This document shows positions 35,086 through 39,920 of a stretch of 64,000 nucleotides of DNA, one piece after another. Source of the DNA: Bacteroidota bacterium (GTDB lineage Bacteria; Bacteroidota; Bacteroidia; UBA7662; CANHCV01); assembly GCA_947501265.1 (NCBI GenBank), contig CANMVY010000002.1:85048-149047 (forward strand), written 5' to 3'. The position numbers were made by a program, and so were the translations under genes. How positions within the stretch are numbered: position 1 is the stretch's first letter; the number at the start of each line of letters is the position of its first letter. The notes beneath the pieces were generated by a model that searched no databases, was not told the DNA's origin, and worked only from the letters and a program-made list of their open reading frames with translations.

Positions 35086-36042
35086 TTACTTTTTTAGACC
35101 AATTTCCTGAAGTCTTTCATGCAAGTATTCGCCCGCTGAAATGGGTTCAAAATGTTTAGGATTTTGTGTGGTAATGCACGAATCCAAACAATCCAATCGC
35201 ATTTCGGAACGAGGATGCAAGAAGAATGGAATGGAATAACGAGGGGTTCCCCACATTTCTCGTGGCGGATTAATTACCCGATGCGTGGTTGATTTCAAAC
35301 GATTATTGGTTAATCGTTGCAACATATCTCCTACGTTGACCACCAGATGATCTGGAAGGGCGGTAACCGAAACCCATTCATTTTGTTTGTTTAAAACCTG
35401 CAAACCATCGGCAGATGCTCCCATCAATAAGGTAATGAGATTGATATCCTCGTGCTCGGCAGCGCGAACAGCATCTTTGGGATCATTTACGATGGGTCCG
35501 TAAAAAATCGGACGTAAAATGCTGTTACCATGATGGATTTTTTCATCAAAATAGTCTTCATTCAAACCAAGAAAAATAGCGATGGCGCGAAGCATGTATT
35601 TACCCGTTTTTTCAAGCAACTGGTAAGCTTCCTTCCCAACAGCGTTAAATTCTGGCAATTCGGAAACGGATACGTTTTCCGGATATTCTTGTTTGATTGG
35701 ATCAGAATCATCAACATACTGACCAAAGTGCCAAAATTCTTTTAAATCACCCACAGTTCTTCCTTTGGCATGCTCTTTTCCGAAGGAAATGTACCCTCGC
35801 TGACCGGCAATTCCAGGAATTTCATACTTCTCTTTGGTCTCAATGGGCAAAGTGAAAAATGCTTTCACCTGTTGGTAAAGGTTTTCCTCAAGAGACTCGC
35901 TAAGAAAATGATTTTTTACGGAAACGAACCCAATGTTCTCATAGGCATCGCCCAACTCGTTTACGAATTTGAGTTTACGAGCAGGATCAGTTGACAAAAA
36001 ATCAGCCAAATCTACCGATGGAATACCTTGTGGAAATGTCAT
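35086..36042 (-). CDS. Isopenicillin N synthase-family 2OG-Fe(II) dioxygenase
   Basis: IPSVDLADF..., AAEHEDINLITLLMGASADGLQVLN and LKSTTHRVINPP (HxD...H...RxS). Confidence 0.92.
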   Translation of the reverse strand: MTFPQGIPSVDLADFLSTDPARKLKFVNELGDAYENIGFVSVKNHFLSESLEENLYQQVKAFFTLPIETKEKYEIPGIAGQRGYISFGKEHAKGRTVGDLKEFWHFGQYVDDSDPIKQEYPENVSVSELPEFNAVGKEAYQLLEKTGKYMLRAIAIFLGLNEDYFDEKIHHGNSILRPIFYGPIVNDPKDAVRAAEHEDINLITLLMGASADGLQVLNKQNEWVSVTALPDHLVVNVGDMLQRLTNNRLKSTTHRVINPPREMWGTPRYSIPFFLHPRSEMRLDCLDSCITTQNPKHFEPISAGEYLHERLQEIGLKK

Positions 36043-36085
36043 AATGTTCGAATTAAGGAAAACAAATTTATCAAATTATGCCTAA

Positions 36086-36106
36086 TTATCCACAGTTTGT
36101 GGATAA
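36086..36106. promoter_or_regulatory. Inverted pair of perfect DnaA boxes
   Basis: TTATCCACA-GTT-TGTGGATAA; both arms match the 9-mer consensus exactly. AT-rich DNA follows at 36107-36140. Confidence 0.8.
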
Positions 36107-36191
36107 CTCAAATTTTTAAAAAATTGGAAAAATTTTTGAGGACTTCCAACCTGAACAAATTATCGACGTTTATCCAAAAAACAGGTTTATT

Positions 36192-37637
36192 ATGGTACAA
36201 AAAAATTGGTTTATTCTCGTTGCAGCCTTAGCTGGAGGTTTGGTAGGAGCTGCAACCGTATCGTCCTTAACCTCAACTATCGAACAAAACCCGGGATCAA
36301 CTCCAACTCGATTGGTTACTTCGACGGGGAATTTGGTTGGGACACCTAGTTTTGTTGAAGCATCGGCCAATGTATTACCAACGGTAGTACACATCAAAAA
36401 CTCTCGTTCTGAGACGTTTGTAGATCCTTTCTATTTCGATCCGTTTGACTTTTTCGGTGGTGGGAATGGACTTCGACAGCAAAAACGCGATGCATCTTCC
36501 ACCGGATCTGGGGTAATTATTTCCAACGATGGCTACATTGTTACCAATAACCACGTTGTTCAAGGCGCTGAAAAAATAGAAGTAACACTGGATGACAAGC
36601 GGGTTCTAGAGGCCCAAGTTGTTGGTACCGATCCCAATACCGATTTAGCCCTCATTAAAGTTTCTGCCAATAATTTGATGGCCTGCCCATGGGGAAATTC
36701 CGATGATGTTCAAGTTGGCGAATGGGCACTAGCAGTCGGAAATCCGTTCAACCTCAATTCCACCGTTACCGCAGGCATCATTTCCGCAAAGGGACGCGAC
36801 ATCAATATTCTGAACGGCCAATCGAAAATTGAGTCATTTCTCCAAACCGATGCGGCCGTTAATCCAGGTAACTCAGGCGGGGCACTCGTAAACATGAAAG
36901 GCGAACTCATTGGAATCAATACCGCCATTGCGTCAAGAAATGGAGTTTACGAAGGATATGCGTTTGCCGTTCCTGCAAATTTGGTCAAGAAGATCGTTGA
37001 AGACCTAAAAGACTTTGGCTCGGTAAAACGAGGATATCTTGGAATAACAGTGGCCGATATCAATGAAAAATTGGCTCAAGATGAAGATTTAAAAGTGCGA
37101 CAAGGAGCCTATGTTGGTGGGTTTTCCGACAATTCTCCCGCTCGTGATGCCGGAATTAGAAAAGGCGATGTCATCATTAAAATCGATGGGAAAAGTGTAA
37201 AAAATCGCCCAACGATGATGGAAATGGTTTCCAGAAAACGTCCGGGCGAAGAAATTAATGTAACGGTAAATCGAGATGGTGAAGAAAAAACCTACTCGGT
37301 AAAATTGATGGATGAAAACGGAACCGGTAATTTGGCATCGTCCAACGAAAAAGTGGAAAGTTCCACAGAACTAGGAGCAACGTTTTCGGGAATCAATGCC
37401 GATGATAAACAGAAACTTGGCATCAACGGCGGAGTTAAAATTGTTTCGATTACCGGTGGGAAACTGAAAATGTCGGGCATCAAACCGGGCTTCATCATCA
37501 CCAAAATTCAAAACCAAAAAGTAACCGATATTAAAGACATCGATCGAATTTTGACCAACACCAAATCGGAAACAGCGCTATTGATTGAGGGGGTTTACCC
37601 TGATGGTCGACGGGCCTATTACGGCATTGGACGATAA
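36192..37637 (+). CDS. Do/HtrA-family periplasmic serine endoprotease
   Basis: TNNHVV, DLALIKV, VNPGNSGGALVN triad motifs; PDZ domains. Confidence 0.95.
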   Translation: MVQKNWFILVAALAGGLVGAATVSSLTSTIEQNPGSTPTRLVTSTGNLVGTPSFVEASANVLPTVVHIKNSRSETFVDPFYFDPFDFFGGGNGLRQQKRDASSTGSGVIISNDGYIVTNNHVVQGAEKIEVTLDDKRVLEAQVVGTDPNTDLALIKVSANNLMACPWGNSDDVQVGEWALAVGNPFNLNSTVTAGIISAKGRDINILNGQSKIESFLQTDAAVNPGNSGGALVNMKGELIGINTAIASRNGVYEGYAFAVPANLVKKIVEDLKDFGSVKRGYLGITVADINEKLAQDEDLKVRQGAYVGGFSDNSPARDAGIRKGDVIIKIDGKSVKNRPTMMEMVSRKRPGEEINVTVNRDGEEKTYSVKLMDENGTGNLASSNEKVESSTELGATFSGINADDKQKLGINGGVKIVSITGGKLKMSGIKPGFIITKIQNQKVTDIKDIDRILTNTKSETALLIEGVYPDGRRAYYGIGR

Positions 37638-38525: not shown

Positions 38526-39920
38526 TTACGTATAACCGAGAATTTTTAACATGGATTTGTACGATTGTTCTTTCGCAAAAAGTTTAGTGAAGTACTCACC
38601 GTTCTCATCACAATCAATAATCACATGTTTGGGTGCTGGAGTTAAACAGTGTTGAATACCTCCATATCCACCAATGCTTTCTTGGTATGCGCCTGTATGG
38701 AAAAATCCAATGTATTGGGGGCGTTCTTTGTCGTAAGTCGGCAAATAAATGGCATTTTGATGGGCTTCAGCATTGTAAAAATCGTCGCTATCGCACGTTA
38801 ATCCTCCCAACAAAACCCTTTCGTATTCGCGTTCCCAATTGTTCAACGCCATCATGATAAAACGCTTATTGATGGCCCAAGAATCGGGTAACGTTGTCAT
38901 AAAAGAAGAATCAATTAAATTCCATTTTTCACGATCGTTCTGCTTTTTCTGATCGATAATCTCGAATAAAACGGCACCGCTTTCACCAACGGTAAACGAA
39001 CCAAATTCCGTGAAAATATCCGGTTCCTTCACCCCAGAATTGTTGCACATGGACTTCACCTGAGCAATGATTTCTTCTGCCATGTACTCGTAATCGTAAT
39101 CAAATGTCAACGAATCTTTGATGGGAAATCCACCGCCGATGTTCAGGCTATCCAAAGTTGGACAAATTCGCTTCAATGCACAATAAACGTTCACACACTT
39201 GCTCAATTCATTCCAATAATAGGCAGTGTCGCGAATTCCGGTATTGATGAAAAAGTGGAGCATTTTCAGCTCCATTTTTGGGTTATCTTGAAGATTCTTG
39301 ATGAAAAATGGAACAATATCCTTGTATCCCATTCCCAAACGCGAGGTGTAGAACTCAAATTTCGGCTCTTCTTCCGCTGCAATTCGAATTCCAACTTTCA
39401 CGGTAGAGTTCGTCATTTCATTCAAAGCAGCCATTTCAGTAGGATTATCCAACACACAAACCAGGTTTTCAAATCCGTTATCGACCATTCGAACAATGTT
39501 TTCGATGTACTGCGGACGTTTGTAACCATTGCAAATGATGAACTTGTCTTTGGTAACTTTTCCAGCATTGTACATCTCTTCGATGATATTGATATCAAAG
39601 GCAGAAGACGTTTCCAAATGGATATCATTTTTCAAAGCCTCTTCTATAACAAAGCTAAAATGACTTGATTTTGTGCAATAGCAATAGTTGTACTTTCCAT
39701 CATACAACGACTTCGCCATGGCTACAGCAAAGATCTTTTTGGCCTTTTGAATTTGATGGGAAATCTTTGGAAGGTATGATATCTTTAACGGGGTACCGTA
39801 TTGTTTAATGACATCCATCATCGGTATATCGTGAAAATAAAGCTCATTATCAATGACTTTAAACTCCTCGGTAGGAAAATCGAACGTTTGTTCAATTAGG
39901 TCGATGTACTTATTCCTCAT
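38526..39920 (-). CDS. Arginine decarboxylase (PLP fold III type)
   Basis: DGKYNYCYCTKSSHFSFV (PLP Lys region), LNIGGGFPI, LGGLTCDSDD; Bacteroidota-type size. Confidence 0.88.
   Translation of the reverse strand: MRNKYIDLIEQTFDFPTEEFKVIDNELYFHDIPMMDVIKQYGTPLKISYLPKISHQIQKAKKIFAVAMAKSLYDGKYNYCYCTKSSHFSFVIEEALKNDIHLETSSAFDINIIEEMYNAGKVTKDKFIICNGYKRPQYIENIVRMVDNGFENLVCVLDNPTEMAALNEMTNSTVKVGIRIAAEEEPKFEFYTSRLGMGYKDIVPFFIKNLQDNPKMELKMLHFFINTGIRDTAYYWNELSKCVNVYCALKRICPTLDSLNIGGGFPIKDSLTFDYDYEYMAEEIIAQVKSMCNNSGVKEPDIFTEFGSFTVGESGAVLFEIIDQKKQNDREKWNLIDSSFMTTLPDSWAINKRFIMMALNNWEREYERVLLGGLTCDSDDFYNAEAHQNAIYLPTYDKERPQYIGFFHTGAYQESIGGYGGIQHCLTPAPKHVIIDCDENGEYFTKLFAKEQSYKSMLKILGYT

Follow-up and report, generated by a model that had tools for sequence, protein, structure and literature searches.

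An inverted pair of consensus DnaA boxes between divergent dioxygenase and htrA genes in a freshwater Bacteroidota bacterium, a possible operator for DnaA

In Escherichia coli, DnaA preferentially binds paired boxes with 2-3 bp between them (PMC11317965), and the double DnaA boxes known at purH, polA, nrdA, datA, and DARS2 are direct repeats in which a strong box is usually paired with a weak one (Stringer et al. 2024, PMC11317965). The DARS cores hold three boxes at fixed spacing, box I being opposed to boxes II and III, and DARS2 has IHF and Fis sites as well (PMC5742627). For Bacteroidota, we found little in the literature searched on transcription regulation by DnaA. Promoters recognized by flavobacterial sigma-A carry a -7 box, TAnnTTTG, located at -12 to -5 (PMC9723704).

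Analysing a 64-kb stretch of DNA (the window) from a freshwater Bacteroidota bacterium, we found two perfect DnaA boxes in inverted orientation, TTATCCACA-GTT-TGTGGATAA, at positions 36086-36106, between divergent genes for a dioxygenase (minus strand) and HtrA (plus strand). The sequences and coordinates given in the original prediction for this region were all correct when rechecked on the window. The features discussed below are, from left to right:

35086-36042, minus strand: gene for a non-haem 2OG-Fe(II) dioxygenase (PF14226 and PF03171), 5' end at 36042; the likely regulated gene
36063-36070, minus strand: predicted -7 element of the dioxygenase promoter, TAAATTTG, a perfect TAnnTTTG, invariant in three genomes
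36086-36094, plus strand: DnaA box 1, TTATCCACA, 9/9 match to the consensus, identical in both congeners
36095-36097: 3-bp spacer GTT, invariant across the three genomes
36098-36106, minus strand: DnaA box 2, TTATCCACA (read as TGTGGATAA on the plus strand), 9/9 match, TTTTCCACA in the congeners
36107-36140, plus strand: 34-nt AT-rich tract, a near-palindrome in this genome only, its symmetry being lost in the congeners
36131-36138, plus strand: weak candidate (7/8) for an htrA -7 element, AATTTTTG
36160-36168 and 36170-36178, plus strand: two weak box matches, TTATCGACG and TTATCCAAA, not kept as boxes in the congeners
36192-37637, plus strand: gene for an HtrA/DegP-type serine protease (Trypsin_2 and PDZ domains), ATG at 36192; a possible second target

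The observation of the pair is exact and non-random. Within the window, TTATCCACA is seen twice against 0.54 expected, and both occurrences are the arms of the pair. Genome-wide, the word has 15 sites compared with 19 for a reversed control word, so it is not over-represented, and 13 consensus boxes lie apart from the pair. Its placement is skewed toward intergenic DNA: on three contigs, 7 of its 10 sites are intergenic, whereas 300 shuffled words gave 6.4% (P about 4e-7). From 15 sites in 2.33 Mb, simple arithmetic gives about 0.001 boxes per genome with a perfect inverted partner within 12 bp. By the original prediction, many equally good inverted pairs elsewhere would have counted against it; instead, the pair has one copy in the genome, and still one when up to three mismatches are allowed. 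The exact 9-3-9 arrangement was found in none of the 389 other genomes of the class (390 searched in all).

Comparing the three genomes sampled from the genus, this one and two congeners, we found TTATCCACA-GTT-TGTGGAAAA at the same position in both congeners, whose second arm, TTTTCCACA, fits TTWTNCACA and differs at the W position alone. Twenty of the 21 positions of the pair are invariant in the three genomes, in a neighbourhood with 82-90% pairwise identity, and the block comprising the pair and the 43 bp on its dioxygenase side (36043-36106) is invariant at 61 of 64 positions compared with 75-77% in the adjoining coding ends. The inner 6-3-6 core, TCCACA-GTT-TGTGGA, is unchanged throughout, the variable position being an outer one. 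The multi-part element proposed originally survives this comparison in part: the inverted pair is kept in the congeners, whereas the third and fourth boxes and the 34-nt palindrome are not conserved. The weak match TTATCCAAA, for instance, reads TTAACCAAA in both congeners, and the matches at 36160-36178 probably do not belong to the element. Outside the genus, the pair is absent upstream of htrA and upstream of the dioxygenase gene, so on present sampling it is a genus-level feature, and a motif linked to either gene across the order was rejected. Conservation in relatives, which had been proposed as a check, thus holds within the genus (3 of 3 genomes) and fails beyond it.

The strongest promoter signal in the gap lies on the dioxygenase side. 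The element TAAATTTG stands 20-21 bp ahead of the dioxygenase start codon and predicts a transcription start near 36058, which sets the pair at about -28 to -48, over the -33 region, a position suited to a repressor or a closely bound activator of the dioxygenase promoter. On the other side, the weaker AATTTTTG would place the pair at about -37 to -57 of htrA. A TTG at -33 spacing is missing from both predicted promoters, and the dioxygenase promoter itself is for this reason a prediction. The consensus boxes overlap this predicted promoter, as is expected of a promoter regulated by DnaA.

We therefore favour, in an evenly balanced judgement, the reading that DnaA uses the pair as an operator to regulate transcription from the divergent dioxygenase and htrA promoters, chiefly that of the dioxygenase. 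The DnaA of this genome has the canonical box-binding domain (Bac_DnaA_C, 6e-32), and its domain IV aligns with the DNA-bound E. coli structure 1j1v, including GGRDHSTVIH. DnaA is the candidate binder since both arms have the full consensus, since this canonical DnaA is present, since TTATCCACA is concentrated in intergenic DNA, and since the adjoining genes, which encode a chromate transporter, the dioxygenase, HtrA, a mechanosensitive channel, and a decarboxylase, include no regulator. Against it count the inverted symmetry, which differs from the direct repeats of E. coli and is more typical of dimeric repressors, the occurrence of the pair in only three genomes of one genus, and the missing TTG at -33. 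Of the functions named in the original prediction, control of the htrA or dioxygenase promoter by DnaA is the one that best withstood analysis, with the conserved TAAATTTG favouring the dioxygenase; from sequence we infer the binding of DnaA, the sign of regulation, and the gene that responds. Two DnaA molecules would occupy the two inverted boxes over the -33 region, nearly on the same helix face, since the boxes are 12 bp apart centre to centre. Bound DnaA would most likely repress the dioxygenase promoter or, from about -40, activate it; htrA may be a target as well. Expression of the targets would then follow DnaA and the replication state.

The pair adjoins AT-rich DNA and has consensus boxes, as a chromosomal origin might, but we consider it highly improbable that replication starts here. 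Skew was assessed on contigs C1, C2, and C11 and on sampled stretches of the others in this 26-contig assembly. On the 307-kb contig C2, where the pair lies at 121 kb, GC skew is negative on either side along the whole length, at -0.006 per base over the left-hand 100 kb and -0.015 over the right-hand 100 kb, with no sign change. It is also negative almost throughout the 397-kb contig C1. On contig C11, skew turns from negative to positive with a minimum at 39-44 kb, and TGTGGATAA, TGTGAATAA, and TTATCCACC lie within 90 bp at 38760-38850, directly after nadD and near mnmG and ybeY. Several words resembling DnaA boxes occur just downstream of nadD in most genomes of the order in which nadD was found. 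We predict oriC on C11 at about 38.8 kb, beside nadD and mnmG, as a far better candidate than the pair locus, from a skew that is weak and whose exact minimum is 5 kb off the boxes. Moreover, at least three conserved DnaA boxes are expected of an origin, and at the pair locus the pair alone is conserved. An origin at the pair was thus rejected: the GC-skew check proposed with the original prediction places the minimum far from the pair and refutes that option, and the doubt about it already raised there from the gene layout was right. Two boxes upstream of mraZ (C1, 234.3-234.5 kb) were likewise rejected as oriC, as the C1 skew does not change sign there. The dnaA gene itself lies on a 3.8-kb contig (C25, 159-1604), where the sole near-consensus box falls within the gene, at its end; in this assembly, therefore, no dnaA was detected next to the predicted origin.

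The main rival to regulation by DnaA is that the pair serves a different dimeric transcription factor as its operator, with TCCACA-GTT-TGTGGA as its core and half-sites that match the DnaA consensus by coincidence. Perfect dyad symmetry over a promoter, the invariant inner core with change confined to an outer position, and an inverted orientation unlike that of E. coli double DnaA boxes all suit such a factor, and we hold it to be a minor but real possibility. However, both arms are unlikely to fit the DnaA consensus 9/9 by chance, no regulator gene adjoins the pair, and the lack of a second copy within three mismatches leaves neither a regulon nor an autoregulated site, so that a regulon of similar palindromes was rejected. 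Alternatively, DnaA might bind the pair to be titrated or reset, as at datA or DARS, without regulating the neighbouring genes. Two opposed boxes of high-affinity consensus would fit this, the more so as DARS sites contain opposed boxes too (PMC5742627), but with the third and fourth boxes not conserved there is no three-box core, the pair sits inside a conserved promoter block, and the genome offers 13 other consensus boxes. The titrating or reactivating element of the original prediction accordingly found no support, and we regard this function as unlikely. It is quite unlikely that the pair is a chance match without function in a conserved promoter. Although it is known from three genomes of a single genus and the entire dioxygenase side of the gap is conserved, coincidence sits poorly with the tiny number of such pairs expected and with near-complete invariance in a more variable neighbourhood. 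We consider it very unlikely that the pair is an RNA or cruciform hairpin, such as a leader structure or a terminator-like element, rather than a protein site. A 33-nt piece does fold at -9.6 kcal/mol (z -3.9), but so would any perfect palindrome; in both congeners the substitution costs one stem pair and no second change restores it, and the predicted start sites leave the pair upstream of both transcripts.

Boxes of the same kind were also observed at other genes. In the order, mraZ was found in 19 genomes: 18 have TTATCCACA on the minus strand 83-92 bp upstream of the match, and TTTTCCACA takes its place in the remaining one; in this genome, the boxes upstream of mraZ are at C1:234489 and C1:234326. 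Outside the genus, MraZ identity is only 33-44%, yet the upstream box is kept. Similar boxes at about -83 to -100 of mraZ are found in some, not most, other members of the class. The mraZ gene is the head of the dcw division cluster, and the box stands directly upstream of GTGGG repeats, which resemble the MraZ operator. The box suggests a DnaA input to the division operon, and the word may instead be bound by MraZ itself. No report of a box upstream of mraZ was met in the literature searched, which is not proof of novelty. In another member of the class, TTATCCACA-N12-TGTGGATAA lies just upstream of parA-parB (G034, contig C4, 162161-162190; L011, 1501-1530), and a second such pair, with N6, lies at 1501-1524 of L010, just after a gene for a DtxR-like regulator. 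These inverted pairs possibly reflect DnaA-linked control of parAB or an origin nearby.

Taking the reading of the pair as a DnaA operator one step further, DnaA of this lineage might bind the symmetric pair as an opposed dimer, so that HtrA, an envelope protease, and the dioxygenase are tied to the replication cycle, in addition to the box at mraZ and the dcw cluster; we find this extension doubtful. If true, the geometry of this DnaA operator would differ from that of the E. coli double box, with its direct repeats. If regulation by DnaA is confirmed, the locus would be a compact test site for the use of an inverted double box by DnaA and for the genes regulated there. The predicted order-wide oriC beside nadD and mnmG and the DnaA-like box found order-wide ahead of mraZ probably have more to offer than the pair itself.

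Compared with the double DnaA boxes of E. coli, the pair is alike in its two boxes, their 3-bp spacing, and its place in a promoter or regulatory region, but it is inverted and both its boxes are perfect, so the common orientation of the E. coli boxes is not shared. With the cores of DARS1 and DARS2 it has opposed boxes in common, whereas here one pair is conserved and the third box, which would complete a three-box core, is not. The predicted oriC of the order likewise places DnaA boxes in an intergenic region beside nadD and mnmG, but it combines several boxes, a skew minimum, and order-wide conservation, none of which the pair has. The palindromic operators of dimeric repressors resemble the pair in their dyad symmetry over a promoter; in contrast to them, it has no adjoining regulator gene, and both its arms are the DnaA consensus.
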